Shown piece by piece: positions 2,950-23,196 of a stretch of 64,000 bases of DNA. Position numbers and translations under genes: made by a program. Position 1 is the stretch's first letter. Each line of letters opens with the position of its first letter. Source of the DNA: Moritella sp. (lineage in GTDB: Bacteria > Pseudomonadota > Gammaproteobacteria > Enterobacterales > Moritellaceae); assembly GCF_013215705.1 (NCBI RefSeq), contig NZ_JABSQR010000009.1, positions 1-64,000 on the forward strand, given 5' to 3'. The notes under the pieces are model-generated. The model ran no database searches, was not told the DNA's origin, and saw only the letters and a list, made by a program, of their open reading frames with translations.

Positions 2950-2966
2950 ACAATTCTGTGTGGTTA

Positions 2967-4243: not shown

Positions 4244-4305
4244 CACACCTTTCCTACGATTTATCGTCAGTCAGATACCATTTACGATAAACCAGATACA
4301 CCCAA

Positions 4306-6207: not shown

Positions 6208-6255
6208 AATTTATCCCTGTTATGTTCTCGCGCTAGTCGCTATTACTAAACGTAA

Positions 6256-8445
6256 CTAGTAGGTACGTCTTTCGCGATTCATTTTCGCCGCCAGTTTTTG
6301 ATCGACATGCTCAATACGTAGCGAGCTCTGCTTGAATGCAGGTTGACGAGAATGCGGATCAAGCAGACCAAGGCACAAACGATTGACACAATCATGGAAA
6401 TGGAATGGAATAAACACGGAGTTTGGCGCGACGCGCTGAGTTAATTGCACCATAACCACCGCATCGCCACGACGAGAAGCTATACGCACATAACTTTGAT
6501 GTTTAATGCCCAATTTGGCTGCAGCATCTGGGTTCATTTCCATATACGGAGTGGGACTATATTTGTTTAAATTACCCATTTTACCGGTTCGGGTACGGGT
6601 ATGAAAATGCTCAACGACACGGCCAGTATTGAGCCAGAATGGGTATTCTTCACAAGGGTGTTCGTTATTATCAACCCAAGGTAATGGGATCAAATTAGCT
6701 TTACCTGTTGGCGTGGCAAACTTGCCATCGGTATACAAGCGCGCACCTTCGTCGTTATCCGTTGCGCCTTCACGGTATGGCCACTGCAGACCACGGGCTT
6801 GTTCAATTTTTTCGTAAGTCATGCCTGAAATATCAAGGTTACGGTCAGCGCCTTTTGACAGCGCTTTCATTTCTTCAAATGCTTCTTCAGTCGTCACCGG
6901 GAAAGTGATTTTTTGACCATTTTCAAAACGTTTCGATAATTCAGAGAAGATCCAGAAGTCCGACTTAGAGTTACCTTTTGGCGGCTGTACATTAGTCACG
7001 CGGTTAACCCGGCGCTCGGTATTGGTGAAAACCCCTTCTTTCTCGGCCCATACCGCAGCAGGTAAAAACATGTGCGCATATTGGGTGGTTTCTACGTCTT
7101 GATAAGCATCTTGTACCACGAGAAAATCTAACTTCTCTAATGTTTTACGAATACGCGAAGTATTCGGCATCGATGTCATTGGGTTGGTCGCCACCAGCCA
7201 TAGCCCTTTAATTTGACCAGTTTCTATCGCGGGGAAAATATCGGTTTGTGCTAACCCGCGTTTTTTAGGGAAGAATTCTGGGTCGATGCCCCAAAATTCA
7301 GCAATATCGTTACGATCCTTTTCTTTCTCTAATGTGCGATAACCCGGTAAGCCAGAACAAGAAGACCACTCACGTGTGCCCATCGCATTACATTGACCAG
7401 TAATAGATAAGCTCGTGCCACCCGGAACACCAATATTACCCGTGATCAGCGATAATGAATTACAACCGGTGATTGCGTCACTGCCATGGGTACTTTGATT
7501 CAGGCCCATGGTCCAGATACTCATCGCACGACCTGCTTTAGCAAATAAACGGGCCACATGACGGATGGTATCTTCATCTATACCGCAGATCTTAGCGGCT
7601 GATGTTGGGTCAAAATCGGCGACACACGCTCTTAACTCTTCAATGCCATTAGTGTATTTTTCAATATAGTCTTTATCTTCGAGACCTTCTTTTAAGATCA
7701 CATGCATTAATGCATTTTGTAAGACGATATCGGTACCAGGACTAATTGGTAAGTGAATATCCGCAAACTGGGCAAGCATAGTGACACGTGGGTCGACCAC
7801 AATAAGCGGGAAATTACGCTTCTCTTTGGCTTCTTTCAAGCGCCAGTAAATAACCGGATGTTGCTCTGGCAGGTTAGACCCCCAGGCAATCAGGCAATCG
7901 GTGTGCGAAAAATCATCGTAACAGCCAGGAGGGCCATCCGAACCAAATGAGCGTTTATAACCCGATACGGCAGAGGCCATACATAAGGTGGTATTACCAT
8001 CGTAATTATTGGTACCAATACAACCACGCGTTAACTTACCTAAGGTATAAAACTCTTCCGTTAGTAACTGACCTGTAGAGACAATGGCAAATACATCTTT
8101 ACCATATTGGTCTTGAATCGCTTTAATTTTTTCGCCCATGGTATCGAGCGCTACATCCCAACTGATTTCTTTATACTGCTCATGAATTTGATCGCGCACC
8201 AGTGGATTGTTACCACGTCCTGCCGCGTCAAATAACTCATGCTCAAAGATACCTTTAATGCACAACTTACCTCTGTTTACATCCGCGTCAGCAACGCCTC
8301 GACTCGCAACTGCATTCCCTTGCTCATTCATACCGATCTCGATAGAACAACCTGTAGAACAATATCCACACGTTGTATATTTCCATTCTTTAACCTGTTT
8401 ATCCGCAATGCGAATAGGCTTTTGATCCTTGCGTCCGAAAATCAT
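6256..8445 (-). CDS. nasA: Molybdopterin assimilatory nitrate reductase, catalytic subunit
   Basis: 729 residues. An N-terminal [4Fe-4S] motif is formed by Cys26, Cys29, Cys33 and Cys62 (CGYCSTGC, KLCIKG). TTLCMASAVSGYKRSFG places a cysteine at about 155, the Mo ligand position of NapA/NasA-type nitrate reductases; formate dehydrogenases have a different motif there. The C-terminal molydopterin-dinucleotide domain runs from about 590. No Tat signal, so cytoplasmic. Likely reduces nitrate to nitrite for NirBD, whose genes are divergently transcribed next door. Start ATG has GGAG 8 nt upstream. The promoter is the leftward sigma-54 site at 8522-8539. A formate dehydrogenase is the alternative, but context and the Cys motif argue for nitrate. 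Confidence 0.85.
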   Translation of the reverse strand: MIFGRKDQKPIRIADKQVKEWKYTTCGYCSTGCSIEIGMNEQGNAVASRGVADADVNRGKLCIKGIFEHELFDAAGRGNNPLVRDQIHEQYKEISWDVALDTMGEKIKAIQDQYGKDVFAIVSTGQLLTEEFYTLGKLTRGCIGTNNYDGNTTLCMASAVSGYKRSFGSDGPPGCYDDFSHTDCLIAWGSNLPEQHPVIYWRLKEAKEKRNFPLIVVDPRVTMLAQFADIHLPISPGTDIVLQNALMHVILKEGLEDKDYIEKYTNGIEELRACVADFDPTSAAKICGIDEDTIRHVARLFAKAGRAMSIWTMGLNQSTHGSDAITGCNSLSLITGNIGVPGGTSLSITGQCNAMGTREWSSCSGLPGYRTLEKEKDRNDIAEFWGIDPEFFPKKRGLAQTDIFPAIETGQIKGLWLVATNPMTSMPNTSRIRKTLEKLDFLVVQDAYQDVETTQYAHMFLPAAVWAEKEGVFTNTERRVNRVTNVQPPKGNSKSDFWIFSELSKRFENGQKITFPVTTEEAFEEMKALSKGADRNLDISGMTYEKIEQARGLQWPYREGATDNDEGARLYTDGKFATPTGKANLIPLPWVDNNEHPCEEYPFWLNTGRVVEHFHTRTRTGKMGNLNKYSPTPYMEMNPDAAAKLGIKHQSYVRIASRRGDAVVMVQLTQRVAPNSVFIPFHFHDCVNRLCLGLLDPHSRQPAFKQSSLRIEHVDQKLAAKMNRERRTY

Positions 8446-8521
8446 AAGACGTCTCCATTGAATTGCTCAGCACATTGTTTATTGTTTTATTTTTATAAAT
8501 ACATTATCTATAAAGACAAGT

Positions 8522-8539
8522 GAGCAATAACCAAGCCAG
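8522..8539 (-). promoter_or_regulatory. Sigma-54 promoter for nasA
   Basis: Minus strand reads TGGCTTGGTTATTGCT: GG at -24 and GC at -12 with exactly 10 nt between. The transcription start would be about 8512, giving a leader of about 65 nt before nasA. Confidence 0.72.
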
Positions 8540-8666
8540 CTTACTTTAAACACCTATAAAAAGGATGATGTTCTTCTTAACCTGCATAAACACAGAGATC
8601 TTCCTGTCTATTGCCCACACGCCCCCTCATTTTAACGACATCTATTCTCAACCACTCAGCCTTAGC

Positions 8667-8703
8667 TGCACCATGGCTGTGCGAGAATGAAAAAACTGGT
8701 GCA
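8667..8703. promoter_or_regulatory. NtrC-like enhancer between divergent nas operons
   Basis: TGCACCATGGCTGTGCG (8667-8683) matches the NtrC pattern TGCAC-N7-GTGCA in 9 of 10 defined bases. A second, half-conserved site ends in GGTGCA at 8703, with centres 20 bp apart (two helical turns). It lies 120-145 bp upstream of both sigma-54 promoters, a typical enhancer distance. Confidence 0.7.
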
Positions 8704-8728
8704 ACATCACACTACTTAATCATCTCAA

Positions 8729-8751
8729 AAACCTTATACAAAATAAGGTTT
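8729..8751. promoter_or_regulatory. Perfect dyad, possible operator
   Basis: AAACCTTAT, 5-nt spacer ACAAA, ATAAGGTTT: a 9-bp inverted repeat between the enhancer and the rightward sigma-54 promoter. It could bind a second regulator; no family is assigned. An IHF-like TATCAACAACTAA (one mismatch to consensus) lies at 8769-8781. Confidence 0.4.
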
Positions 8752-8797
8752 AGAAATAAATACTTAAATATCAACAACTAACGCTTTAATTACAGAG

Positions 8798-8814
8798 TTG
8801 GCATTGTCTTTGCG
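8798..8814 (+). promoter_or_regulatory. Sigma-54 promoter for cobA-nirB-nirD operon
   Basis: TTGGCATTGTCTTTGCG: GG (8800-8801), 10 nt, GC (8812-8813). It lies about 40 bp upstream of the cobA ATG and matches the sigma-54 pattern TGGCA-N6-TTGC closely. Confidence 0.78.
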
Positions 8815-8851
8815 TTAGTGAGTACAGAGCAGTACTACAGGGATGTGAGTC

Positions 8852-9670
8852 ATGACAGTTGAATTAATTACCAAAGCGCAATCAAAAAATAACAGCACGC
8901 TAGGTCAAGTCGCATTAGTAGGAGCAGGTCCGGGGGATCCAGAGTTACTCACACTAAAAGCATTAAAGGCGATTGAGAGTGCCGATCTGATCTTGTTTGA
9001 TAACTTGGTTAGCCACGACATTAGAGCGTTGTTTCCACCCCATACCAAAGCGATCTATGTCGGTAAGAAAAAAGCAGACCATTGTATTCCACAAGACCAA
9101 TTGAATTTATTCATGGTCGATAAAGCCAAACAAGGTCTGAATATTTGTCGTCTCAAAGGCGGTGACCCATTTGTATTTGGTCGCGGTAGTGAAGAACAAC
9201 TGGTGCTCCATGCCCACGATATCAAAACAATCGTCGTGCCTGGCATCACCGCAGCATCGGGCTGTACCGCCTACGCAGGGATCCCGTTAACCCACAGAGG
9301 TCTGTCAACGGGCTGTACTTTTATTACTGGGCACCTAAAAAATGGCCAATTAGACCTGAATTGGTCGCAACTAGCGCACCTAGAACATACCTTAGTGTTC
9401 TACATGGGACTGGGTAAATTAGCGGAAATTTCAGCGCAACTGATCAGTCATGGTTTAGCCAGTGATACACCTGCTGCCTTGATAGAAAACGGCTCGACAC
9501 CACAACAAAGAGAATTCGTTGGCACTGTAGCTACCTTGCCAACACTCGCGATTGAACACCAATTACAAAGCCCTAGCCTGATTGTGGTCGGCAAAGTTGT
9601 CTCTCTTGCAGAACAACTTAGCTGGCGAGATCTAGAGCAAGCGGCAAAAAATCAAGAATTAAGCGCATAA
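8852..9670 (+). CDS. cobA: Uroporphyrinogen-III C-methyltransferase (SUMT)
   Basis: 272 residues. SAM-dependent methylation of uroporphyrinogen III to precorrin-2, the first step to sirohaem, the cofactor of NirB. Motifs are VGAGPGDPELLTLKA near residue 25, RLKGGDPFVFGRG near 105, and the PGITAASG segment near 130. No CysG-type dehydrogenase/ferrochelatase domain, so those steps must be encoded elsewhere. First gene of the rightward nitrite reductase operon, 11 nt before nirB. GGGATG lies 6-11 nt upstream of the ATG. Confidence 0.94.
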   Translation: MTVELITKAQSKNNSTLGQVALVGAGPGDPELLTLKALKAIESADLILFDNLVSHDIRALFPPHTKAIYVGKKKADHCIPQDQLNLFMVDKAKQGLNICRLKGGDPFVFGRGSEEQLVLHAHDIKTIVVPGITAASGCTAYAGIPLTHRGLSTGCTFITGHLKNGQLDLNWSQLAHLEHTLVFYMGLGKLAEISAQLISHGLASDTPAALIENGSTPQQREFVGTVATLPTLAIEHQLQSPSLIVVGKVVSLAEQLSWRDLEQAAKNQELSA

Positions 9671-9681
9671 CGGAGCATGTC

Positions 9682-12216
9682 ATGAAAAGAATTATAGTTG
9701 TCGGTAACGGCATGGTAGGTCACCATTTTATTGACCAATTTATTCAGCAAGACAAAATGGCTGAAGTACAAATCACCACATTCAGTGAAGAATCACGTCT
9801 CGCTTATGATCGTGTGCAGTTAAGTGCTTATTTCAGTGGTAAAACAGCTGATGACTTAATGATGACATCGCCAGAATACTATGATGACAACGGCGTGCAG
9901 TACTTTGTTAACGATAAAGTTATTAGCATCGATAAAGCCGCTAAAACCGTCACCACAGCACAAGGTCGTGTCGAAAGTTACGACAAATTGGTACTGGCGA
10001 CAGGCTCATATCCGTTCGTGCCGCCAATTCCAGGCAAAGACCAAGACCATTGTTTAGTTTACCGTACTATTAACGATTTAGAAGACATCACCGCATCAGC
10101 CAAAGAAAGTAAAGTCGGTGTGGTCGTCGGTGGTGGTCTACTGGGTCTTGAAGCCGCCAATGCAATTAAACAGTTAGGGCTAGAAACCCACGTGGTGGAA
10201 TTCGCTCCGCGCCTCATGGCGGTGCAAGTTGACGACGGCGGTGGTAAGATCCTGCGCGACAAAATTGCAGCGCTAGGCGTGAATATTCACACCGAAAAAA
10301 ATACTAAAGAAATTGTGAAAGGTGAAACTTGCCGTTACCGCATGAACTTTGCTGACGGTTCTCACGTTGAAACCGATATGATCATCTTCTCTGCCGGTAT
10401 TCGTCCGCAAGATGAATTAGCCCGTTCTTTTGACCTAGCATTAGGCGAACGTGGTGGTATCCAAATTAATGATCAATGTTTAACCTCTGACGAAAATATT
10501 TTCGCGATTGGCGAGTGCGCGTTATGGCAAGGCCGTATCTTCGGTCTCGTTGCACCGGGTTATCAAATGGCGAAAGTGGCTGTAGACCAAATTGTTGGTG
10601 CAGGTAACTTAGCGTTCACAGGTGCTGACATGAGTACCAAGCTGAAATTGCTTGGTGTTGACGTAGCCAGTATCGGTGATGCACACGGTAATGCAGAAGG
10701 CGCGCAAAATTATGTGTTCACTAACGAAGCTGACCAAGTTTACAAAAAACTGGTGATCAGCGCATGTGGTAAGAAATTACTGGGCGCGGTCATGGTGGGT
10801 GAAGCGGAAGATTATGGTACTTGGTTACAAATTTATTTAAACGATATGGATATTCCCGGTGCGCCAGAGAATATGTTGGTACCACCCGCAGAAGGTGGTT
10901 CGGTCACCATGGGGGTTGATGCGCTGCCTGATTCAGCGGTTCTTTGTTCATGCCTTGATGTCACAAAAGGTCAAATCTGTGCCGCGGTACAAGATGGTGC
11001 AACCAGCATTGGTGACATTAAATCAATCACCAAAGCTGGTACTGGTTGTGGTGGCTGTAGCGCACTGGTAACGCAAGTACTAAATGCCGAACTTGCAAGC
11101 ATGGGTGTTGAAGTGAACACCGATCTGTGTGAGCACTTCGCTTACTCACGTGCAGAACTGGCTGACATAATCCGTGTTAAACGTATTAAAACATTCGAAG
11201 CATTAATCACCGAGTTTGGCGCTGGTCATGGTTGTGAAATTTGTCGTCCGACAGTAGCCAACATTCTGGCGTCATTCTGGAATGACTACATCCTCGAAGA
11301 TGATCATCTTGGTCTGCAAGACGTCAATGACGTTTATTTAGGCAACATGCAAAAAGACGGTACCTACTCTGTTGTACCACGGATCCCAGCGGGTGAGATC
11401 ACCCCAGAAAAATTAATTGTACTCGGTGAAGTGGCGAAAAAGTATGGCTTATATACCAAGATAACCGGTGGACTACGTATCGATTTATTTGGTGCGCAAT
11501 TACATCAACTACCCGACATATGGGCATGGCTGATCAAAGAAGGCTTCGAAACAGGTCACGCTTACGGTAAATCACTGCGTACCGTAAAATCGTGTGTGGG
11601 TAGTACCTGGTGTCGTTATGGTGTGCAAGACAGCATGTCACTGGCCATTGATCTTGAGAACCGCTACAAAGGTTTACGCTCGCCACATAAAATTAAGTTT
11701 GGCGTGTCTGGTTGTACTCGAGAATGTGCTGAAGCTCAGGGCAAAGACATCGGTATTATTGCGACAGAAGGTGGCTGGAGTCTCTATGTCTGTGGTAACG
11801 GTGGTATGCGCCCTCGTCATGCCGATTTATTCGCGACCGACCTAGATACTGACACGCTATACAAATATATTGATCGTGTATTGATGTTCTATATCCGTAC
11901 CGCAGACCGCCTACAACGTACATCGGTTTGGTTAGAAAATATGGAAGGTGGCTTAGATTACCTTAAAGACGTGGTTATTAACGACAAACTGGCGCTTACC
12001 GCAGAGCTTGAATCTGAAATGGCCGCAAACATTGCTAACTACCAGTGTGAGTGGAAAACAACCCTTGAAAGCCCTGAAAAACTACTGCGCTTTAAACACT
12101 TTATTAACTCTGAAGAAAAAGACAGTGCGGTTCAGTTTGTTGAAGTCCGTGACCAAATTCGCCCTGCGACACCCGCAGAACGCGCTGGTCAAATCCCTGT
12201 GCTCGAAGTGAACTAA
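9682..12216 (+). CDS. nirB: Nitrite reductase (NADH), large subunit
   Basis: 844 residues, normal length. An N-terminal FAD/NAD(P) reductase domain (VVGNGMVGHHF, VVVGGGLLGLEAAN) covers about 1-390. A BFD-like [2Fe-2S] domain with CSCLDVTKGQIC and GTGCGGC lies at about 417-465. A second Cys pair CEICRP follows near 515. The sirohaem/[4Fe-4S] domain has SCVGSTWCRYG and VSGCTRECAEA at about 638-685. It reduces nitrite to ammonium in the cytoplasm with six electrons from NADH, together with NirD. RBS GGAGCATGTC precedes the ATG. Confidence 0.97.
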   Translation: MKRIIVVGNGMVGHHFIDQFIQQDKMAEVQITTFSEESRLAYDRVQLSAYFSGKTADDLMMTSPEYYDDNGVQYFVNDKVISIDKAAKTVTTAQGRVESYDKLVLATGSYPFVPPIPGKDQDHCLVYRTINDLEDITASAKESKVGVVVGGGLLGLEAANAIKQLGLETHVVEFAPRLMAVQVDDGGGKILRDKIAALGVNIHTEKNTKEIVKGETCRYRMNFADGSHVETDMIIFSAGIRPQDELARSFDLALGERGGIQINDQCLTSDENIFAIGECALWQGRIFGLVAPGYQMAKVAVDQIVGAGNLAFTGADMSTKLKLLGVDVASIGDAHGNAEGAQNYVFTNEADQVYKKLVISACGKKLLGAVMVGEAEDYGTWLQIYLNDMDIPGAPENMLVPPAEGGSVTMGVDALPDSAVLCSCLDVTKGQICAAVQDGATSIGDIKSITKAGTGCGGCSALVTQVLNAELASMGVEVNTDLCEHFAYSRAELADIIRVKRIKTFEALITEFGAGHGCEICRPTVANILASFWNDYILEDDHLGLQDVNDVYLGNMQKDGTYSVVPRIPAGEITPEKLIVLGEVAKKYGLYTKITGGLRIDLFGAQLHQLPDIWAWLIKEGFETGHAYGKSLRTVKSCVGSTWCRYGVQDSMSLAIDLENRYKGLRSPHKIKFGVSGCTRECAEAQGKDIGIIATEGGWSLYVCGNGGMRPRHADLFATDLDTDTLYKYIDRVLMFYIRTADRLQRTSVWLENMEGGLDYLKDVVINDKLALTAELESEMAANIANYQCEWKTTLESPEKLLRFKHFINSEEKDSAVQFVEVRDQIRPATPAERAGQIPVLEVN

Positions 12217-12297
12217 CAGGTTAAACCACCACGTTCAACCTAACAGCAATCGATGACAGTAATTGATCACAGTTATCGATGACAACTATCTATAACA

Positions 12298-12329
12298 GCT
12301 GTTAGCGGGTGCGTTCACCCGCTAACAGC
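12298..12329 (+). other. Strong hairpin between nirB and nirD
   Basis: 14-bp perfect stem GCTGTTAGCGGGTG / CACCCGCTAACAGC with loop CGTT, lying in a 130-nt gap. No T run follows, so it is unlikely to be a simple terminator; it may stabilise the nirB end of the transcript or set the ratio of nirB to nirD. Confidence 0.7.
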
Positions 12330-12346
12330 AGATTTAAGGATTTATT

Positions 12347-12673
12347 ATGACGACTTGGACTCCAATTATTGAAAAAGATAAACTCACCCCAGATACCGGT
12401 GTATGTGCGTTAGTGAACGGTAAGCAGGTTGCGATCTTCTTTGATCGTAAAACTGACCAACTGTTTGCTATTGATAACTACTGTCCAGCCAGTAAAGCTA
12501 ACGTATTATCACGCGGATTAATATCTTCAGTTAAAGATGTATTAACCGTTTCATCACCACTTTATAAAGAGCATTTCAGTCTGACCACAGGTGAATGCCT
12601 TGAAAATGATACTTTATCAGTGCCTGTATATGCAGTACGTGTTACTGATGGTATGGTGGAAGTCAGCGTATAA
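12347..12673 (+). CDS. nirD: Nitrite reductase (NADH), small subunit
   Basis: 108 residues with the Rieske-type beta fold typical of NirD but without the cluster-binding Cys/His pairs, as normal for this subunit. Recognisable pieces are VCALVNGKQVAIFF, FAIDNYCPASKANVLSRG and SPLYKEHFSLTTGECL. It partners NirB. RBS AAGGA lies 7 nt before the ATG. It is followed after 44 nt by the phosphatase-kinase gene. Confidence 0.93.
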   Translation: MTTWTPIIEKDKLTPDTGVCALVNGKQVAIFFDRKTDQLFAIDNYCPASKANVLSRGLISSVKDVLTVSSPLYKEHFSLTTGECLENDTLSVPVYAVRVTDGMVEVSV

Positions 12674-12717
12674 GGATATCGTGGCGCGATTATTTAGCGC
12701 CATAACAGGGAGTTAGT

Positions 12718-14457
12718 ATGTCACCACGGCACTTACAAGGCGGCGCGACCTTTACCATAGGTCAGCGCTCAGTTGCAGGGATAAAAGCCCATAATGAAGA
12801 TGCCATTGGTATTCGTATCCCGGATGATTTACTGCTGACCACTAAAGGTGCGGTCGCGATTATCGCCGATGGGGTCAGCGCGGCAGAAGCCGGTAAAGAA
12901 GCCAGCGAAACCTGCGTACATAACTTCTTATCCGATTATTATTCGACCCCAGAAACCTGGTCGGTTGGCAAATCAACAGGTCAGGTATTAACCGCACTGA
13001 ATCGCTGGTTATATAGTCAGGGCCGACAGTTTGCCGATGCCCAAAAAGGCTACCTCACTACCTTAAGTGCCATTGTATTTAAATCCCATGCAGCGCATTT
13101 ACTGCACGTCGGTGATTCGCGAATATACCGTTTACGTAACAACACCCTTGAGCAATTAACCCGAGACCACACCACGGTCGTCAATAGTAACCAATCTTAC
13201 CTCGCCCGCGCGATGGGCTTGGATACTACCCTCGATGTGGATTATAAAGAAGTCGAGTTACAAGTCGGTGATGTGTTTTTATTATCAACCGACGGCTTAC
13301 ATGATTTTGTTAGCGATAAACTATTACGAGAAATGGTGCAACAGACGCATCAATCTGCAGAAGGTGATTTTGAAGCATGTTGCGAACAGCTTATTCAGCA
13401 TGCATTGGCCAGTAACAGTAATGATAATATCAGCTGCCAATTGTTGCGGGTCGACAGTTTACCTAAGCTCAGTGCCGAAGATGTGCATGTCCATCTTGCC
13501 TCCATGCCTTTCCCGCCCGCATTACGCACTGGATTATCCATTGATGGCCTAAAAGTGATTAAAGAGTTACATGCCAGTAGCAGTAGCCATTTATATTTAG
13601 TCGAAGACAAAGACAGCAAACAGCAATACTGCATGAAAGCACCCTCGGTCAACTATATCGATGATCCTGCTTATATCGAGCGTTTTACCATGGAGACCTG
13701 GATTGGCTCGCGATTACATAACCCGCATATTTTAAAAATTGTCGAAACCAACAGGAAAAAAAGCCATCTCTATTATTTAATGGAAGTGATTGAAGGTATC
13801 ACCCTAGAACAGTGGATAAATCAACATCCGAATCCGCCGATCCAAGAAGTACTTAATATTGTTGAGCAGGTGATTAAAGGCTTACGTGCTTTTCACCGTA
13901 AAGAAACCCTACATCAAGATTTAAAGCCGGGCAATATCATGATCGATAATAATGGCCAAGTTAAGATCATTGATTTTGGTTCTTGTTTCGTCAAAGGCAT
14001 CGCTGAAATAGCCACCCCATTGCAACGCGATAAGATCCTCGGCACTGCCGCCTATTCCGCCCCTGAAACCGTGATCAATGGTGACAGTACTGCGCAATCC
14101 GATATCTTCGCCGTTGCTGTGATTACTTTTGAAATGCTCACGGGTAAGCTGCCTTTTAATGGCAAACTCGAAACCTGTCGTACCCAGAAGGCATATCTCA
14201 ATACCAAGTATGTTCCCGCTTATGAATACAATCCATTAGTGCCATTTTGGTTAGACGGCACCATCAAAAAAGGCCTACGCTTCGACCCTAACAAGCGTCA
14301 CGCAGATGTATCCGAACTCTTGCATGAGTTACAGCACCCTAACCCTAAATATAAAAATAATCGCAAACAAACCTTAATTGAAAAAAATCCAGAACGCTTC
14401 TGGCAAGTGATCTCGTTATTATTACTATTTGCGCTTTGTATTTCACTATTTAGTTAG
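12718..14457 (+). CDS. Fused PP2C phosphatase and Ser/Thr protein kinase, membrane-tethered
   Basis: 579 residues. Residues about 1-245 are a PP2C-type phosphatase (HNEDAIG, IIADGVSAAEAG, HVGDSRIYRL, LLSTDGLHDF, NDNISC), with the metal-binding aspartates present. Residues about 275-535 are a Hanks-type kinase: Lys about 306 in CMKAP, HQDLKPGN near 399 (HQD in place of HRD), DFGS near 418, and SAPE. The last 18 residues are hydrophobic (VISLLLLFALCISLF), a C-terminal membrane anchor with both enzymes in the cytoplasm. It follows nirD by 44 nt in the same direction, suggesting reversible phosphorylation acting on nitrogen assimilation, perhaps on transport; that role and the substrate are inference. 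No nitrate transporter gene is in the window. Confidence 0.88.
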   Translation: MSPRHLQGGATFTIGQRSVAGIKAHNEDAIGIRIPDDLLLTTKGAVAIIADGVSAAEAGKEASETCVHNFLSDYYSTPETWSVGKSTGQVLTALNRWLYSQGRQFADAQKGYLTTLSAIVFKSHAAHLLHVGDSRIYRLRNNTLEQLTRDHTTVVNSNQSYLARAMGLDTTLDVDYKEVELQVGDVFLLSTDGLHDFVSDKLLREMVQQTHQSAEGDFEACCEQLIQHALASNSNDNISCQLLRVDSLPKLSAEDVHVHLASMPFPPALRTGLSIDGLKVIKELHASSSSHLYLVEDKDSKQQYCMKAPSVNYIDDPAYIERFTMETWIGSRLHNPHILKIVETNRKKSHLYYLMEVIEGITLEQWINQHPNPPIQEVLNIVEQVIKGLRAFHRKETLHQDLKPGNIMIDNNGQVKIIDFGSCFVKGIAEIATPLQRDKILGTAAYSAPETVINGDSTAQSDIFAVAVITFEMLTGKLPFNGKLETCRTQKAYLNTKYVPAYEYNPLVPFWLDGTIKKGLRFDPNKRHADVSELLHELQHPNPKYKNNRKQTLIEKNPERFWQVISLLLLFALCISLFS

Positions 14458-14460
14458 GCA

Positions 14461-14491
14461 CAAAAAAGCCCTATACCATGTGATATAGGGC
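14461..14491 (-). terminator. Terminator of the trpS end of the dam operon
   Basis: Stem GCCCTATA / TATAGGGC (14468-14475 and 14484-14491). On the minus strand it runs into TTTTTT. It also lies just after the kinase stop and may block convergent transcription. Confidence 0.82.
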
Positions 14492-14554
14492 GTTAACTAT
14501 TCGGTTATTCAATAATACTATGATTGGTCAATAGCCTATCACCTAAATAACGGT

Positions 14555-15556
14555 CTAGTTATTAGCAATAAAACCCACGGCTTCGTAGGCTTTCGCTAAT
14601 GTTGGTGCAGCGCGCTCAGAGGCTTTGTCAGCACCGATACGCATAATTCGCTGTAATTCAGTCTCATCTGCACGTAACTCGTAGTAACGCGCTTGAATCG
14701 GCTCAATCATAGCGACAACCGCGTCAGCGGTATCTTTCTTCAAGTGACCATACATTTTATCTTCGTATTCAGGCACAAGATCAGCAACTGGACGTTTAGT
14801 CGCCACAGAAAGTAATGTCAGTAAGTTAGATACACCCGGTTTTTCTTTATTATCAAAGTAAATACGCGCTTGTTCATCACTGTCTGTTACTGCACTTTTC
14901 AATTTTTTAGCAATCTGTTTCGGTTCATCTAATAACTTGATGAAAGCTTTTGGATTGTCATCTGACTTAGACATTTTCTTCAGCGGATCTTGCAGGCTCA
15001 TAATACGAGCGCCCAACGTTGGGATCATCGGTTCTGGCACTTTAAATACGTCACCGTAGATATTATTAAAACGAGTCGCGATAGTACGCGCTAATTCTAA
15101 GTGCTGCTTTTGATCATCGCCTACAGGTACTGCATCTGCTTGATAAAGCAAAATGTCTGCAGCCATTAGCACAGGGTAAGTATATAAACCTGAATTACTG
15201 CTGCTAGAGTTATTAGATTTATCTTTAAACTGCGTCATACGGTTTAATTCACCCATTTGGGTATAGCAGTTTAATAACCAACTCAATTGTGCATGTTCTG
15301 GTACTTGAGATTGTAAGAAGATAGTCGACTTTTCAGGGTCTAAACCACATGCAACATACATTGCTAGGCCTTCAAGCACCTGTGATTTAAACTCTTTCGG
15401 GTCTTGACGTACCGTGATGGTATGTAAGTCCGCAAGCATGAAATGACAGTCGCTGTGTTCCTGCATGTCCAGCCATTGATTGATTGCACCAATATAGTTA
15501 CCAATCGTCATACTGCCTGAAGGCTGAATACCACTTAATACCACAGGTTTTGTCAT
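14555..15556 (-). CDS. trpS: Tryptophanyl-tRNA synthetase
   Basis: 333 residues, standard length. Class I signatures are [13 protein letters not shown] (HIGH equivalent) near residue 10 and KMSKS near 195. It charges tRNA-Trp in the cytoplasm. The start is the ATG of MTKPVVLSG, with GGGAA 9 nt upstream, as in E. coli; the frame is open five codons further to a TTG that lies within the ribosome binding site. Last gene of the damX-dam-rpe-gph-trpS series and followed by a terminator. Confidence 0.97.
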
Positions 15557-15641
15557 ATATATATTTCCCAATCTCTTAATTCATTCAATTGTGGGCAAGT
15601 ACATAGACTTACCCAATCATGTTTATGTTAACTTTACTGTG

Positions 15642-16313
15642 CTACTTCAATTTCACTGCAGATAATAGCTCACTGATATCATCAGCAACGAAGTCAGGGT
15701 TACTATCGCTAATTGGAATACCGTAGTTGTAACCATAGGTTAAACCAAAACTGGTAAAGTTTGCCGCTTGTGCTGCAATGATATCGTTTTTAGAATCACC
15801 CACCATCAAGGCATCTTCAGCCTTAAGTTGGTAATGATCTAAGCAATGCAATAGCGGTAATGGATTGGGTTTTTTCTCAGCTAGAGAATCACCACCCAGT
15901 ACCACTTCAAAAAACTCACTAATACCGGCTAATTCAAGTACTGGCGTGGTTTGCACCATAGGTTTATTGGTCACAATTGCCAACTTAAACCCGGCATCAC
16001 GCAGTGCGGTTAGCGTTTCTTTTACATTTGGGTATAACACGCTGTGTGTATATACATTGGCAGAATAGTGCTTTAAGAATGACGCCAGTGCATCATTAAA
16101 TAATGCCGAGTCAATATCATCAACAATGTTAACACTGCCGGATAACGCGCGTTGTACTAGTACTTGCGCACCATTACCAACCCAACCGCGGACTTCATCT
16201 TCCGAGAAATGGGCACGATCAAAATCACTCAGCATGCAATTAACGGCAGCGGCTAGGTCAGGTACACTATCAACAAGGGTACCGTCTAAATCAAAACAAA
16301 TAAGTTTAAACAT
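15642..16313 (-). CDS. gph: Phosphoglycolate phosphatase (HAD family)
   Basis: 223 residues. HAD motif I is [10 protein letters not shown] at the N-terminus, motif II VTNKP near 117, motif [14 protein letters not shown] and VGDSKND near 150-175. It dephosphorylates 2-phosphoglycolate, for example from DNA end repair. Its ATG overlaps the rpe stop by 8 bp, so translation is probably coupled. Position between rpe and trpS is the conserved gammaproteobacterial order. Confidence 0.94.
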
Positions 16314-16980
16314 GGGCTTTTTCTAACTCCGAACGCATTTCATCAATGACTTTTTTATAATCTTCTTGGCCGTAAATCGCAGAGCCAGCAACAAACATAT
16401 CGGCGCCCGCTTCTGCAATCTCGCGGATGTTATCTACTTTAACGCCACCATCAATCTCGAGGATAATATCGCGACCACTGGCATCAATTAATTCTCGAAC
16501 ATCGCGTAATTTTTGTAATGTTGAAGGGATAAAACTTTGACCACCAAAGCCAGGGTTTACTGACATTAATAAGATCATATCTAACTTATCCATCACATAA
16601 TCTAAATGATGTAACGGCGTTGCTGGGTTAAATACTAACCCCGCTTTTAAACCGTGTTCCTTGATAAGTTGCAGAGAGCGGTCAACATGATCAGATGCTT
16701 CGGCATGAAAAGTGATCATAGACGCACCGGCTTTAGCAAACTCATTAATCATGTGATCAACCGGTCGCACCATTAAATGCACGTCAATGGGTGCCGTGAC
16801 ACCGTGATCACGTAATGCTTTACAGATCATTGGCCCAATCGTTAGGTTCGGCACATAATGGTTATCCATTACGTCAAAATGAATGACATCCGCACCTGCG
16901 GCCAGTACAGCATCGACTTCTTGGCCTAAGCTAGCAAAGTTAGCCGAAAGAATTGAAGGGGCAATCAGAAAGTTTTTCAT
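16306..16980 (-). CDS. rpe: Ribulose-phosphate 3-epimerase
   Basis: 224 residues, a TIM barrel interconverting ribulose-5-phosphate and xylulose-5-phosphate in the pentose phosphate pathway. Signatures are [11 protein letters not shown] at the start, [14 protein letters not shown] near 36 with the metal-binding His/Asp, VNPGFGGQ near 142 and EIDGGV near 175. Normally it follows dam directly; here the C-terminal piece of the broken dam lies 149 nt upstream and the 5.2-kb element beyond that, so its usual operon promoter is distant. Confidence 0.96.
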
Positions 16981-17129
16981 TGGGCATGCTCTCAGTTGTT
17001 GTTATTCCATTACGCTGTGCAAATCTTACCCTAAGTTAGCCCCTAGGGTAAAATAATAAAACCAGAATAATACTGACAACGGAGATTTAACCGAGGAATG
17101 TAAGACTATTCACGCTGATCGGCGCGAGT

Positions 17130-17447
17130 TTAACTATATAGCGCGAGTAACTCGTCTACTTTATTACGTTTACCGGCATTCCGGCTGATGGTACGTTTAA
17201 CCTGAACAACCTCAAATATAGAGCCATGATAAAGTTCACGCATTAACGGAATGTCATGATTCGAAATCAATATAGGGATCTGTCGCTCTTGGGCGGTTTC
17301 ACGAGAAACTTTAGCCAGCAGCGCCTGATCATCTAGACTAAAGCCATTCGTCGCATACGAGGTAAAACTTGCCGTGCTACTTAATGGCGCATACGGCGGA
17401 TCACAATATTGTACCGGAAATAGTAATTGTAAAGCTTTCCCTTTCAT
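17130..17447 (-). pseudogene. dam: C-terminal part of host Dam, separated by element insertion
   Basis: Host sequence is 17130-17408 and encodes CDPPYAPLSSTASF, LISNHD and the VDELLALYS end of the DNA adenine methyltransferase. It is the last third of the gene, including the catalytic DPPY motif. The first 13 codons (MKGKALQLLFPVQ, 17409-17447) come from the element, which supplies an ATG with GGGAGGAG 6 nt upstream, in frame with the host part. So a 105-residue protein could be made, but it lacks the AdoMet-binding motif I and the target-recognition region. Not expected to be active alone. Confidence 0.92.
17405..17422 (+). repeat. Left end: core AATA plus inner TTGTACCGGAAATA
   Basis: AATA (17405-17408) is the last stretch shared with intact dam. 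The inner sequence is a partial inverted match to the right end and is probably a recombinase binding arm. A GATC (17399-17402) lies 2 bp outside the core. Confidence 0.75.
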
Positions 17448-17567
17448 AAAGCTCCTCCCATCCTTCTAATTACACTATACAATATAGATTTAAATACAAA
17501 AAATCATAACAATTTAAAAAGTGATACTACAATTATAAATTATCGCTATACAACAGCATATTTTGTA

Positions 17568-18818
17568 ATGAACTATCATGTTAAAGAGTACATAAATTTT
17601 GATAACGAACTGTGTTGCGATTTAATTGACATGGGCTGCGATCTGCCGAGATGTTTTTGGCTGTCAGCGCATTTACGTGATTTCAGAATATTCAGAACTG
17701 CACTAGCCTACGCCTATCAAGCGAAATTTTATTTTGAATATTTCGATGCCAGAGGAATTGATATTGTTGAGCGAGTCGAATCAGGTTCTTTTTTCACTAA
17801 AATAGAGATTCAGAGGTACATAACTCACAGCCTCTATAGGCTGGAATATTCACCTACCACTGACGGTAATATTACCAAATTTACAGCCAAGAATCTGGAT
17901 AATCTAATTCATACAACCCGATTTACTCAAGGTCGTGTTGCGAATAGCACGACAAAGCTTCGAATCAATAGTTTCATTGCCTTTGTCGAATTTTTGTATG
18001 ACCATATTCACGCAGGTAATAATGTGCCGAGCGATGTTTTACTCCGCTACAACGACGCCAAGGGGAGAATGTCACGCTACATTAAAAAGCTCAAGTCTGG
18101 AAATGCAGTGGTTAAAGATCAGTTTGAGCAAGCTATACCGACAGATGTTTATTTCCGACTTATTGAAATTACAAAACCGCACAACTCTGATAACCCATGG
18201 TCAAAACTATCTCGATTTAGAAATCATTTAATTGTACAGCTGTTTAACGAAACTGGTATTCGTATCGGGGCGCTCTGCAAGCTAAAAATCAGTGATCTCG
18301 TAACGGATAAACCGACCAGAATTCGAATAACTCGCATTCCACATGATCCAAGCGATCCTCGACCTCGACCCGCCGCCCAAAAAACGAGAGCACATGTCTC
18401 AGCCATCAGTCCAGAGCTTATGAAAAAGCTATTATTATATATTGATACTGACCGTGGGAAATACAAGAATTCGGTTAGTCACGATTTTATTTTTGTCGCT
18501 GAAAAAGGCAAAACAGCTGGGCATCCGCTTTCCATTCAAAGTGTAGAGTACCTGTTTGAGCGGATATCAAAATCGCTTAATTTTAAAGTTTATCCGCACC
18601 TGATGAGACACAAATTTCAAGAGCTGTTTGAGGATGCAGCTCTGGCGCGTGGTCTATCACCTGAACGCATTAATGATTTGCGAAAATTTGCCTCTGGATG
18701 GTCAGAAAATTCGAACATGGATGAAGTGTATAACGAATATAAGATTGCGATAGCCGCCAGTGAAGTCTCTAAAGAAATGCAGCAATCATTACTGTCTAAC
18801 TTAAAAGGATTAAACTGA
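17568..18818 (+). CDS. Tyrosine recombinase A of the dam-integrated element
   Basis: 416 residues. The C-terminal half has the catalytic set: Arg232 in TGIRIGALCKLK, His344 and Arg347 in HLMRHKF, Trp near 380 in ASGWSE, and Tyr388 in MDEVYNEY. Residues about 110-205 look like a SAM-like core-binding domain. It cuts and rejoins the att sites through a covalent phosphotyrosine link. No clear ribosome binding site precedes the ATG at 17568. The next recombinase starts 1 nt after its stop, so the two are co-translated and probably act together. It begins 160 bp inside the left tip and points inward. Confidence 0.9.
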   Translation: MNYHVKEYINFDNELCCDLIDMGCDLPRCFWLSAHLRDFRIFRTALAYAYQAKFYFEYFDARGIDIVERVESGSFFTKIEIQRYITHSLYRLEYSPTTDGNITKFTAKNLDNLIHTTRFTQGRVANSTTKLRINSFIAFVEFLYDHIHAGNNVPSDVLLRYNDAKGRMSRYIKKLKSGNAVVKDQFEQAIPTDVYFRLIEITKPHNSDNPWSKLSRFRNHLIVQLFNETGIRIGALCKLKISDLVTDKPTRIRITRIPHDPSDPRPRPAAQKTRAHVSAISPELMKKLLLYIDTDRGKYKNSVSHDFIFVAEKGKTAGHPLSIQSVEYLFERISKSLNFKVYPHLMRHKFQELFEDAALARGLSPERINDLRKFASGWSENSNMDEVYNEYKIAIAASEVSKEMQQSLLSNLKGLN

Positions 18819-18819
18819 T

Positions 18820-20424
18820 ATGCAAAACAATTATCTGGATCTGGACGAACCGGAACTCAACAAACTGTCGATTGCACAATTACCTGATTATTTCGAAAGG
18901 CACGGCTTGCAAAGGTTATACACTGCTAACAACGCAGCTTGGACGTTTGATATCCTAAGCGACAGATGGCAGGTAAGTACCAAAGGGACTGTTAATCTCG
19001 AATTTATGAACGAGTTCGATATACCAATGCAAACGTGGCTGTCATTAAGAATTCTCATTGCCGACAAAGCAGAAAGTTATAAGAAAAGCACCGTAGGCAC
19101 TGTGGCAAGCGCTATAAAAAGCATAGGTAATGGCTGGCAGGACTGTCTACATTTTCAGGCTGCATTTAATGTGTTGAAAGACGGTTACAAACGGCGTTTA
19201 ATCAGTTCTTTCAGGGAACTTGAAAAAAATCCCCTTTCTGAGTTTCTTGCCATAAAGACGCATTTTAACCCGTTTATCCGTTTTCTGCAAAAACAAGATT
19301 TTCCTAATCCAAAGAGATTAAAAGGTGTTTTTGATCCAGTTCACGGTGTCTACACCGACGAAGAGATGCAAGAGATACAGGACAAAATAAGACTGACAGT
19401 TAGCGAGTTATTGACTCAACTAGAAAAGAATGTTGTGCCGTCCTTGGCTTTATTTTTGAGGTTCACTGGCATCATCCGCGTGTTACTATTAATCAGTATT
19501 TATCGACGTCCTGCGCAACTAGAGATGATGAAATGGTCAGACGTATTGCCCATAGGCGTTAGCTTTAAAGACCATCGATATGCAGCTCATTCACCAGCAC
19601 CCGAAGAGGAAACGGGGTTTTCCGACGTTGATCAAGTACATTTGCGGACCTTCAAGGCCAAGAATGGTTATGGGTTTCGTGGGTATGCTGAGCGCCGTTC
19701 ACATCGCATGGAGCCTGAATTCAGCAAACTAATTGGTATTTATCGTTATTTTTACCAGTTGCTACTGATGGACAGACTCACAAAACAAGGTATTCAGCTA
19801 AGTGAAGAAGAATGGGAGGACTTACTCTGTCGTTGTCCATTCCTTCCGGGTGCTAAGCTGTTTACCACGCAATATAACACAAAACGCAGGCTATTTGCGT
19901 CAGTAGGACATCAGTCCGATGCAATGCACAGCGGTTCGAGTATAGCTTCAATAAAAAGAACATCTAGGCGTTTGGGGCTATCCAGCACCCGTATTGCCCA
20001 TTTTGACATATCAAACAATCGTTCACGTCATACAGTTATTACAAACGCTCTCGAGCGCGGTCTGAGCGTAATACAGTCCGCCGCTATAACTGGCGTAACT
20101 CCGTCGGTGGTAAAAAATTATGCACACTTAGACATAAAAGGTCGGGTCGCTATCAACAAGTCAATGGCTGGTCATCGGGTGTTGAATCAGTTTGTCCGTA
20201 TTAGCCTTCATGAGCTAAAAAATATGGATGGCGTTATCGTTATAAATGAGTTTGACGAAGTACAAGGAACATTGAAAAATAACACATCGTGTCATACCTG
20301 CAAGGCTCGTATCTGCAAGCCAATGGGCTGCTACGGATGCGATAATTTCACACCTTTTTGGGATGCTGATCATGAGTCTAACTTAGCCATAATTGAGCAA
20401 AAGATTAGCTTTACTCCAATCTAA
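18820..20424 (+). CDS. Tyrosine recombinase B with C-terminal Cys cluster
   Basis: 534 residues. The catalytic region shows Arg230 (RRPAQLEMMKW), SRHTVITNALERG with the second Arg, and Tyr434 (VVKNYAHLD). The usual His before the second Arg reads Asn (NNRSRH), as in divergent recombinases. The extra C-terminus (about 485-510) has CHTCKARICKPMGCYGC: a C-x2-C-x4-C-x4-C-x2-C cluster probably binding zinc. Large second recombinases with such tails occur in Tn554-like systems. AAAAGGA precedes the ATG by 10 nt. Its last 14 codons overlap the opposite-strand remnant at 20383-20643. Confidence 0.87.
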   Translation: MQNNYLDLDEPELNKLSIAQLPDYFERHGLQRLYTANNAAWTFDILSDRWQVSTKGTVNLEFMNEFDIPMQTWLSLRILIADKAESYKKSTVGTVASAIKSIGNGWQDCLHFQAAFNVLKDGYKRRLISSFRELEKNPLSEFLAIKTHFNPFIRFLQKQDFPNPKRLKGVFDPVHGVYTDEEMQEIQDKIRLTVSELLTQLEKNVVPSLALFLRFTGIIRVLLLISIYRRPAQLEMMKWSDVLPIGVSFKDHRYAAHSPAPEEETGFSDVDQVHLRTFKAKNGYGFRGYAERRSHRMEPEFSKLIGIYRYFYQLLLMDRLTKQGIQLSEEEWEDLLCRCPFLPGAKLFTTQYNTKRRLFASVGHQSDAMHSGSSIASIKRTSRRLGLSSTRIAHFDISNNRSRHTVITNALERGLSVIQSAAITGVTPSVVKNYAHLDIKGRVAINKSMAGHRVLNQFVRISLHELKNMDGVIVINEFDEVQGTLKNNTSCHTCKARICKPMGCYGCDNFTPFWDADHESNLAIIEQKISFTPI

Positions 20425-20643
20425 AATTGCTCCGCATGACTGAAATAACTGGTAAAGATATATTTCCCAAAAGCTAGAATTGAAAGTAGTTTGGAATTCA
20501 TCAACTAACTTGTTATCACGATCAGGAAATCCATGACTCCAACGACAAAGTTCGTCTCTATCTTTTGCTTGCGTATGCCTAAGAACTTGTAAATAATTTT
20601 TATGTAATTTGTCTTCTGAAAACTTGGTGTTAAATAGATTCAC
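20383..20643 (-). pseudogene. Truncated gene of unknown function, N-terminal part only
   Basis: 86 residues. The segment RWSHGFPDRDNKLVDEFQTTF followed by NSSFWEIYLYQLF and GAILDWSKAN looks like the start of a larger conserved protein, which then breaks off into LLLNYG and a stop inside the 3' end of recombinase B. In proteins I recall with this type of start, the next residues would be PDF, possibly of a PD-(D/E)xK nuclease-like fold; this is weak inference. The break at about 20400 suggests that recombination joined the recombinase module to older cargo. Confidence 0.5.
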
Positions 20644-20987
20644 TTTGGATACCTGATAGAGCTAACATCTTAGTATGCGGAATTCCGTCTAAGGTGAACT
20701 CCATTTTAATTAAGCTAATCAGCATGAGTAATATCAAATTTATCATTAAGTCGTAGAATTTATCTATAACAAAACATATGTAAATTGATCTGAGTATATG
20801 AGGAATGAGCAGTTACTTTAAACAACATTGAAGCTGAAACGGATTAGAACTTATGTTTTAAGGCATATTTTTCGCGTTACAGAAAGAATGCGAATTTGAA
20901 ACTACTTATTGTGTGAAATGGCGACTTTGCTATCGATAAACTGAAAAACGCAAGTGATCGCCGTTAATTCACATGTTAATTAAAGTA
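20644..20987. other. Non-coding stretch in the element
   Basis: About 340 bp of AT-rich sequence with no gene, hairpin or repeat that I can support. It probably contains the promoter of the truncated leftward gene. Confidence 0.45.
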
Positions 20988-21167
20988 TCAAGTGCATTTT
21001 TTTTCACCCGTACCACAATGCTTTGAGCGACAATTTCTACAATATGATTGAGCAATTGTCTTACCTCCTTGCATATTGCGTAAACCAAATACTTTCTCAA
21101 TTTCTTTCAAATCACCGCTAGCTTGTTTATTGCAGCAAGGGCAAGTTGCGCTTAGAGTTGATGGCAT
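20988..21167 (-). CDS. Small Cys-rich, probable zinc-ribbon protein
   Basis: 59 residues beginning MPSTLSATCPCCNKQ, with a second Cys/His cluster YCRNCRSKHCGTGEKKC at the end. Seven or eight Cys in two knuckles (CPCC and C-x2-C-x4-C) imply one or two bound zinc ions. The ATG is preceded by AGGAG 6 nt upstream, a strong translation signal, which supports a real gene despite its size. No signal peptide. Function unknown; it could bind nucleic acid. It lies alone in the element's cargo, with no gene within 340 bp on either side. Confidence 0.72.
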   Translation of the reverse strand: MPSTLSATCPCCNKQASGDLKEIEKVFGLRNMQGGKTIAQSYCRNCRSKHCGTGEKKCT

Positions 21168-21529
21168 AATTATCTCCTATTGTTAAATGCATCATTATAA
21201 ACATGGAGATAAATATATTACTTTCAAGGTAGTTGTGTTTTTAAAACTGAAATAATAAGTAAATATATTGGGCTATTTTTAGAAGTGTTAAGAGAATTGA
21301 AGCCAATAGCTAGTTTCACCTCATTTAAGGAGTGGAAATAAGGTGATATGTCATTAACGATGGTTTAACGCCAATATAGTCTGGACTGTTATTTCAGAGA
21401 GATTCGAAGGCCATGGTCAAAATTAATTGACAACTTCAATATCAATCTATGGAATTATAATTGGCTTTGTTAGCTAGGAAATTGGCGGAAATACATTTAT
21501 TTCAAATTCCATAGAGTGATTAATATTAT
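21168..21529. other. Non-coding stretch downstream of the element dam
   Basis: No gene seen. It contains an 11-bp inverted repeat TCTATGGAATT / AATTCCATAGA (21446-21456 and 21505-21515) 15 nt beyond the element dam stop, possibly part of its transcript end. The loop is 48 nt, so a simple terminator is not convincing. Confidence 0.4.
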
Positions 21530-22369
21530 TCACTTTTCATAAAGTACCATCAATTCAAAAACTTTAACTCGGCCATGTCCTTTACTGCTAATGGAACGAT
21601 GCACTTTTAATTTTGACAGTGTTTTTGCACCACTATAAATTTCACGAGTAAATTCAGTGTCATGATTAGATATTAAAGTTGGTATATTTTTATTTTTAGC
21701 TGCTTCTGCACATTTCACTAATCGTATTTGGTCATCATCATCAAATGTATTACCTGCATACGAAGTAAAATTAGAGGTTCTATTTATTGGCGAGTATGGT
21801 GGATCGCAATATATGGCATCCCCTGATTTAGCTAGATTAAAAGCAACATCAAAGTCCCCCTGTATAAACAGAGCACGTTGAGATTTTTTAGCAAAAAATT
21901 CTAGTTCCATTTTTGGAAAGTATGGCTTTTTGTATCGGCCAAAAGGAACATTGTATCCACCGGATTTATTATAGCGGCATAAACCATTGTAGCCATGGCG
22001 ATTCATATAGAGAAATATTAATGAGCGAAAAAAGGGATCATTCGATTTATTAAACTTTGCTCTAAGTTCGTAATATTGCTCTGCAGTGTTGTACTCACTT
22101 TGAAAGTAATGCTCAGCTTCAGTAATAAAATTAAAAGAATCGCTTTTCAGGATGTTAAATAAATTAATTAAATCCTTGTTCATATCCAAGAGTAAGTATT
22201 CATCAAAATCTGAGTTTAGAAACACAGATCCACCACCGACAAAGGGCTCTATAAGTCTTCCTTTACCTTTTGATGGAAGGAGCTGTTTTATATTATCCGC
22301 CAGTTTTTTCTTTCCACCAGCCCACTTTAGAGGTGAACGCATTGAACTGAGATTATTACAATCAGGCAT
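21530..22369 (-). CDS. dam: Complete DNA adenine methyltransferase carried by the element
   Basis: 279 residues, full length for Dam. Motifs in order: LKWAGGK near 15, EPFVGGGSVF (AdoMet motif I) near 40, FLYMNRHGYNGLCRYN and VPFGRYKKPYFP (target-recognition region) near 120-150, YCDPPYSP (catalytic motif IV) near 188, LISNHD and RSISS near the end. It should methylate adenine in GATC. It aligns with the broken host Dam along its whole length but is clearly a different lineage. Its ATG overlaps the stop of the interrupted host frame (ATGCCTGA), with AAGGG 6 nt upstream, so it is probably translated by coupling from the host dam transcript and replaces the lost enzyme. Confidence 0.93.
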   Translation of the reverse strand: MPDCNNLSSMRSPLKWAGGKKKLADNIKQLLPSKGKGRLIEPFVGGGSVFLNSDFDEYLLLDMNKDLINLFNILKSDSFNFITEAEHYFQSEYNTAEQYYELRAKFNKSNDPFFRSLIFLYMNRHGYNGLCRYNKSGGYNVPFGRYKKPYFPKMELEFFAKKSQRALFIQGDFDVAFNLAKSGDAIYCDPPYSPINRTSNFTSYAGNTFDDDDQIRLVKCAEAAKNKNIPTLISNHDTEFTREIYSGAKTLSKLKVHRSISSKGHGRVKVFELMVLYEK

Positions 22370-23126
22370 GCTGATCCCTTACTACTGTAGTCGAAGCTAA
22401 AAACTGTAAAGAATAAATAGCTTTTTTTATTGAAAATAAATCATATGCCTGCTCTTTCGCACTTCCATTACAAATACAGTCTAAAATGTAAATCATAATA
22501 CGTGTAAATAATGCATCAATAATAAATAAAGTCAAACCCTTACACTTACTCATCCACTCAGTGAAAACAAGATATATTCGGTATAAGAAATAAACCACAT
22601 CATCACTGCGTAAACGTTTATAAACTTCAGAATAAGATTCACAAATAAACGTGGCTTTTTTGGATTTCTCAGCAAAAAAACGTAATTCTTTTAACGGGAA
22701 GTACGGTTTCTTATAAGAACCAAATGGCACATTAAAACCACCTGATTTGTTATAACGGCATAAACCATTAAAACCATGACGATTCATGTAAAGAAACATT
22801 AACGAGCGCTGATAAGGGTCACGAGTTTTGTTAAACTTTTCACGTATTTTGTAATAACGCTCTTTATCATTAAATTCAGGCGTAAAGAAACGCTGGGCAT
22901 CGGCAATAAATTGTTCTGGTTTGTTTTGTAGGATCTTATACATATTAATCAAATCAGGATTAATATCATTCAACAGGTATTCGTCATAATCAGTATTTAA
23001 AAATACTGAACAAGCGCCAACAAACGGTTCAACTAAACGCTTACCAGCCGGTAGTTTTTCACGTAGACGATCAACCAGAGAATACTTACCTCCGGCCCAT
23101 TTTAAGAAGGCTCGCGTTTTCTGCAT
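22362..23126 (-). pseudogene. dam: N-terminal part of host Dam with an element-encoded tail
   Basis: The first 178 codons (23126-22593) are host Dam: FLKWAGGKYSL, EPFVGACSVF, FLYMNRHGFNGLCRYN, VPFGSYKKPYFP, ending DDVV. The frame then enters the element and runs for another 76 codons (FLYRIYLVFTEW onward) to a stop at 22362. The catalytic DPPY motif is missing, so this 254-residue product should be inactive, though it may still bind AdoMet or DNA. Intact dam normally follows damX as here. The last 8 nt overlap the start of the element dam. Confidence 0.92.
22575..22592 (-). repeat. Right end: core AATA plus inner TTATACCGAATATA
   Basis: AATA at 22589-22592 repeats the left core. Reading inward on the minus strand, TTATACCGAATATA matches the left arm TTGTACCGGAAATA at 11 of 14 positions, lying 2 nt further from the core. 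Confidence 0.7.
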
Positions 23127-23196
23127 TTTGTGACTTATACCGCTAAATAAAAGGGGGCCGATTGTACATCCATTACAGCTAAATTGCGCTGTTTAT

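Follow-up and report, generated by a model that had tools for sequence, protein, structure and literature searches.

Introduction

Mobile elements that break a gene and bring a divergent replacement copy with them are documented for the recA mobile element (RME) of Vibrio cholerae (PMC4405046) and for SE-6283 (Tn6283), a strand-biased circularizing integrative element (SE) residing in bcp for which growth data in E. coli are available (PMC5991714, PMC9345347), and the same strategy has been proposed for Tn552-II (PMC12486829). In SE and Tn554-type insertions the spacer of attB is kept at attL and the spacer of the previous site is found at attR (PMC10214605). GInts, which have the four-gene operon ginABCD, exchange strands by 6-nt staggered cuts, require all four genes for movement, have ssb as a documented target and are reported to be transcribed outward from the ginA end (PMC5385486). 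Here we describe an element that splits the DNA adenine methyltransferase gene dam of a Moritella sp. and carries a second, complete dam (dam2). It is located within the first 64,000 nucleotides of contig NZ_JABSQR010000009.1 (assembly GCF_013215705.1), and this whole stretch is called the window in the following.

Mismatch repair, the timing of replication and gene regulation make use of the GATC sites marked by Dam, and an element breaking dam must at once supply a substitute at the right dose. In our opinion the element is quite likely a decayed GInt-type element that uses dam as attB and provides a divergent Dam of a separate clade (clade II) as replacement, with the account of expression and import that is given below.

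Results and Discussion

The gene order on the minus strand of the window is aroK-aroB-damX-dam-rpe-gph-trpS, and dam is interrupted by an insert of 5,178 bp (17409–22586) plus a 6-bp footprint. A reading of the window made from the sequence alone (the sequence-only reading) had placed a 5.2-kb insert at the DPPY codons of dam, and indeed the gene is split directly ahead of them with host dam residues on both sides. The N-terminal fragment (22593–23126, minus strand) comprises 178 codons to VVY, its protein is 100% identical to residues 1–178 of the congener G006 and it matches positions 1–181 of the MethyltransfD12 profile. The C-terminal fragment (17130–17402, minus strand) starts with the DPPY codons, shows 97.9% identity to residues 177–270 of a congener Dam as well as a match to NF008152 over 177–269, and its frame extends upstream to an ATG at 17447 within the element. 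Using a congener Dam as query, residues 1–179 aligned at 23126–22590 and residues 177–270 at 17414–17133. A comparison with element-free strains, suggested in the same reading, could be made as well: an intact dam of 270 aa is present in 10 of the 10 congeners in the database, and the empty site is therefore defined to the single base. It reads GGATC[ACAATA]AACCACATC, with the spacer in brackets and a few genomes differing from it by one or two substitutions, and deleting 17409–22592 from the window exactly regains such an uninterrupted site. Both host dam halves still look constrained (ratio of nonsynonymous to synonymous substitution rates, dN/dS, 0–0.12), suggesting that the insertion is probably recent.

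The replacement gene dam2 (21530–22369, minus strand) encodes 279 aa and matches TIGR00571 (1.3e-87, 293.9 bits against a cut-off of 114.85) and the E. coli Dam in the PDB (7.7e-89). All Dam motifs are present, and the positions aligned to K9, N120, R124, P134, Y138 and DPPY of E. coli Dam, which include GATC-recognition residues, are all conserved. The identity of dam2 is 56% to E. coli Dam, 54–56% to the Dams of its genus and 53–56% when E. coli Dam and the host Dam are taken together, and a maximum-likelihood tree places it in a separate clade (support 100/98) that does not include the usual Dam of the genus, so that the earlier claim of a complete, divergent Dam with all motifs holds and dam2 is not host-derived. 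At E≤1e-30 it is the only complete Dam match in the window genome.

This clade II, sampled with 14 members, is scattered over three other families. Its Dams are located at the native damX-dam locus as sole Dam match in G025, G083, G292 and further genomes of family f6, with G837 as the exception. Other members of the family of G025 that gave a Dam match carry the usual Dam, as do three congeners of G083, and the usual Dam is retained by other members in several of the genera concerned. This suggests that clade-II dam took the place of the native dam more than once. The clade is under purifying constraint (nonsynonymous differences, pN, ~0.21–0.25, with synonymous differences, pS, saturated). 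As a clade-II Dam is the sole Dam match at the native locus in other genomes, Dams of this clade can serve as the sole Dam; dam2 is predicted to be active, and the cell probably now depends on the copy of the element. In G837 (L152, 8176–9042) the clade-II dam is inverted between rpe and damX and has two genes for chemoreceptors as neighbours, and the native dam is missing from its place.

The ends of the element could be assigned from its junctions, the left one reading GGATC[ACAATA]TTGTACCG and the right one CGGTATAA[GAAATA]AACCACATC. At attL the 6-bp spacer ACAATA (17403–17408, plus strand) is the target's own, being the same as in the empty site of nearly all congeners. The element starts with the left terminal motif C, TTGTACCG (17409–17416, plus strand), which forms an imperfect inverted repeat with the right terminal motif C′ at the element end (22579–22586, minus strand; TTATACCG when read inward), the latter being derived from the junction comparison. 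The attR spacer GAAATA (22587–22592, plus strand) is unlike the ACAATA of the target and, from the comparison with the empty site and the rule described for SE (PMC10214605), is taken as the fingerprint of the previous site. The joined ends would read CGGTATAA[GAAATA]TTGTACCG, that is imperfect inverted repeats around a 6-bp spacer, as in SE. Between attL and attR just AATA (4 bp) and scattered matches are in common, compared to the imperfect direct repeats of 10–17 nt of GInts. A plain alignment of the element ends as terminal inverted repeats was no better than shuffles, and the interpretation of the att sites is based on the spacer logic together with the comparison to G066 described below. 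Taken together, the ends look like those resulting from GInt/SE/Tn554-type integration.

Two genes for recombination follow the left end. The first encodes a ginA-like tyrosine recombinase of 416 aa (17568–18818, plus strand) with a match to Phage_integrase (PF00589, 6.9e-11) and the R-HxxR-Y residues in the alignment. The second (18820–20424, plus strand) encodes a ginB-like protein of 534 aa with 34% identity to the second genes of the loci L018 and L019, and in the alignment it is short of 37–45 C-terminal residues that are present in all relatives. Of the two tyrosine recombinases named in the sequence-only reading the first is confirmed, and the second is only recombinase-like and C-terminally truncated. 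Just at the point of this truncation a fragment of a PD-T7-5 anti-phage gene begins in antisense (20383–20643, minus strand), which holds the first 79 residues only (PADLOC PDLC04110, 1.8e-32, profile 1–79 of 346) and is a sign of earlier defence cargo in the element. A small Cys-rich protein of 59 aa (20988–21167, minus strand; phrog_19700, 3.2e-21) is encoded as cargo beside dam2.

The element has neither ginC nor ginD of the four-gene operon, and a search for GinC-like proteins across seven genomes found none in the window genome. Same-order relatives have four genes, which encode in this order proteins of ~440, 550, 780 and 145 aa, as seen in L018 and L019 at the 3′ end of nth. The profiles of these four proteins also match the complete four-gene operons that lie downstream of ssb in L058, L060 and L061, each from a different genome. 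The simplest reading is that one deletion fused ginB to the PD-T7-5 cargo gene and took out ginC and ginD. As movement of GInts needs all four genes, the window copy is probably immobile and not excisable. The idea that loss of the element is penalised when excision is imperfect is thus inapplicable to the present copy. We regard the element as a descendant of a GInt-type element, with an indirect link to the founding Pseudomonas GInts via the operons at ssb, and since only ginA and a truncated ginB are kept, we call it a GInt-derived relic and not a GInt. Filing it as SE (IntA-Tfp-IntB-Srap) was ruled out, as no core protein matched SE-Pda04Ya311 of pAQU1 and the four family profiles gave no significant match to it with hmmsearch and hhalign.

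A second insertion into dam was found in G066, a genome from another family. Here a dam 3′ fragment of 273 bp, with the same sequence as G066's own dam, is followed by GGATC[ACAGTA]TTAGAACGG and an N-terminal relic of ginA with 66–68% identity to the ginA of the window. The insertion is at the same base of dam, the ends of both elements have 23 of 32 bases in common by a count made by eye, and the 6-bp spacers as well as the base-identical target in the window genome (G000) and G066 correspond to the site-specific 6-nt staggered exchange of GInts. An independent integrase relic of the same lineage at the identical site argues that dam is the target of this lineage and not the place of a chance landing. 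The full dam of G066 is found 9 kb off in its native neighbourhood, as in G023. The dam 3′ fragment and the ginA relic lie beside RHS-like genes (L062, 1–11100), and a 334-bp repeat (99%) flanks both dam copies, which suggests that a duplication rescued dam; from this arrangement dam is a recurrent target, but in G066 the gene was preserved by a second host copy and not by cargo.

More distant relatives of the integrase are located at nth, ssb and a gene for an MFS transporter. The closest relative being at dam, and dam2 not being derived from the host, neither of two possibilities raised in the sequence-only reading, namely recombinases lying mostly at unrelated sites and a host origin of dam2, has come true. 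Complete four-gene GInt-like elements share the 3′ end of nth (rnfABCDGE-nth) as insertion site in seven genomes of several families (L018, L019, L046, L047, L048, L050, L051). Two genomes from a single genus (L054, G152, 1654–17121; L053, G081) have a related element that splits the gene for the MFS transporter. No second copy of that gene was found in the stretch of L054 that was searched, and this control for a break without replacement rules out that every internally inserting relative carries a copy of its target. A plasmid of Photobacterium toruni (NZ_CP101696; L156, 4201–6353) has a divergent Dam-family gene directly before a site-specific integrase and 13 kb from a complete GInt-like operon; this Dam was rejected as a relative of dam2, as it is unrelated (31%). 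Searches with ginB and with a two-sequence alignment of the ginA N-terminus against genome and viral contigs found no relatives, and a class-wide genome search for ginA gave no match at E≤1e-40 outside the window genome.

Both ends of the element fit the dam frame. At the right end the frame of the host dam N-terminal half is continued by an in-frame tail of ~75 codons (22362–22592, minus strand) to a TGA, overlapping the dam2 ATG by 8 nt (ATGCCTGA). This frame is the sole open one of six, and it stays open in 0.2% of dinucleotide-model trials (P ~0.002). The region reading outward at the left end (17409–17460, minus strand) contains a GGAGG ribosome site, the ATG at 17447 and ~12 codons contributed by the element, which continue in frame into the C-terminal fragment of dam (open reading frame 17130–17447). 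Scans for consensus promoters and terminators remained at shuffle level, and the right-end and tail sequences had no relatives above chance among the fetched loci, Pfam and PHROGs.

Concerning the way in which the strain obtained the element, the flanking damX and rpe-gph are mostly 91–100% like G003 and G005, but the dam sequence to the left and right of the insert belongs to the G006/G009 type. From the informative sites between 23054 and 17187 this type is seen at 63 of 67, and the change to the background type is completed by 23140 on one side and by 17181 on the other. This unstranded tract (17181–23140), a G006/G009-type interrupted allele in a G003/G005-type background, indicates that this strain received the interrupted dam in one piece from another lineage within the genus, through homologous recombination and not by integration of the element.

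From these data we propose the following model. A GInt-type element with several tyrosine recombinases, whose lineage would use the codons just ahead of DPPY in dam as attB, splits dam upon integration and supplies a divergent clade-II Dam as replacement. The transcript of the host dam operon would read through the N-terminal half of dam into the right end, where the open frame leads up to the dam2 start, and we infer coupled translation of dam2 from this native transcript, which would result in one dose of Dam per cell. The in-frame ends thus suggest a concrete route, in which the host's own dam transcript and ribosomes are used. Translation of the displaced 3′ half would be served by the ribosome site and start of the left end, which probably reads outward toward rpe-gph-trpS; outward transcription as reported for GInts would help to keep these downstream genes transcribed. 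Later, the deletion of ginC, ginD and part of ginB may have fixed the element in place, and the dam::element allele would then have entered the window genome via homologous recombination across dam.

Several observations speak against this model. The full arrangement of break and replacement is present in one genome only, and the relic in G066 has no dam2 and an intact dam nearby. The statistic for the right-end frame comes from a single element, and the count of one complete Dam in the window genome holds for matches at E≤1e-30.

It could also be that dam2 is ordinary cargo, for example an orphan methylase that serves in anti-restriction or in defence against phages, and that landing in dam was coincidental. 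Dam-family genes are indeed common on phages and plasmids and with PD-T7-5 the element had a defence gene among its cargo, but the integrase lineage targets dam in G066 too, and dam2 clusters with chromosomal Dams that occupy the dam locus as the sole Dam and not with the viral Dams sampled, being ≤54% identical to phage or plasmid copies. In addition, the frame of the host dam ends in an overlap with the dam2 start, and no dam homolog was found in the fetched regions of the related elements at nth, ssb and the MFS gene, leaving coincidence with little probability.

Somewhat harder to dismiss, even if unlikely, is a dead relic with nothing adaptive left, in a strain that tolerates the loss of Dam and in which dam2 is silent. 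The loss of recombination genes would fit to this and dam is dispensable in some Enterobacteria; against it, dam2 is intact with all motifs, the right-end frame is still open and the halves of the host dam have not yet decayed, as expected for a recent insertion. An assembly artefact at 17408 or 22589 might come to mind for a draft genome of 58 contigs, but the junctions have just the 4 bp AATA in common, dam2 and the other genes of the element occur once each in the genome, terminal motifs are present, a base-exact independent insertion exists in G066 and a single recombinant ancestry is common to the dam flanks left and right of the insert, so that we regard an artefact as very improbable.

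A wider proposal, which goes beyond the decayed GInt-type element of the window and is made only tentatively, is that dam-targeting GInt-type break-and-rescue elements repeatedly displace the chromosomal dam in marine Gammaproteobacteria. They would split dam at DPPY, take over transcript and frame via their in-frame ends and leave a clade-II dam at the native locus in at least three other families, and the interrupted allele would also spread by homologous recombination after the loss of mobility genes. The link between the element and the clade-II dam at native loci is thereby inferred. If elements at the dam site do drive the scattered clade-II replacement, this would be a mechanism for the in-place swap of a conserved housekeeping gene, and also a one-way dependence on a mobile element that is no longer able to leave.

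Apart from this locus, a 579-aa open reading frame next to trpS (12718–14457 of the window) looks by eye like a fusion of a PP2C phosphatase and a Ser/Thr protein kinase with a C-terminal membrane segment.

Conclusion

In the sequence-only reading, replacement of dam by a full copy had been regarded as new. The general strategy is already known from RME in recA and SE-6283 in bcp; with dam as target we found no report of break-and-replace in a literature search of open-licence papers. RME is similar in that it interrupts recA and supplies a divergent recA, and differs in element and target as well as in the active excision and restoration of recA shown for it (PMC4405046). SE-6283 shares with the element of the window the internal break of a housekeeping gene together with a divergent homolog (54.8% protein identity), the 6-bp spacer footprint and the inverted-repeat ends, whereas the recombinases of the window have no sequence similarity to those of the SE in pAQU1 and the target is dam. 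Tn552-II also carries a homolog of its target gene, tgl, and brings in an att at the right end (PMC12486829), but it is staphylococcal, with Tn554-like behaviour, tnpABC and a YolD-like target. To the GInt/Tn6571-type elements our element is connected by the homologous four-gene operons of its relatives, including those at the 3′ end of ssb, by the 6-nt staggered exchange and by the outward transcription reported from the ginA end (PMC5385486), and it differs from them in lacking ginC and ginD, in the truncated ginB, in its size of 5.2 kb and in breaking its target internally rather than at the gene end. New in comparison to all these systems are dam as the target, the use of a GInt-type element, the frame-matched ends, the spread by homologous recombination, the absence of mobility genes that were lost and, possibly, a connection with the recurrent replacement of dam.

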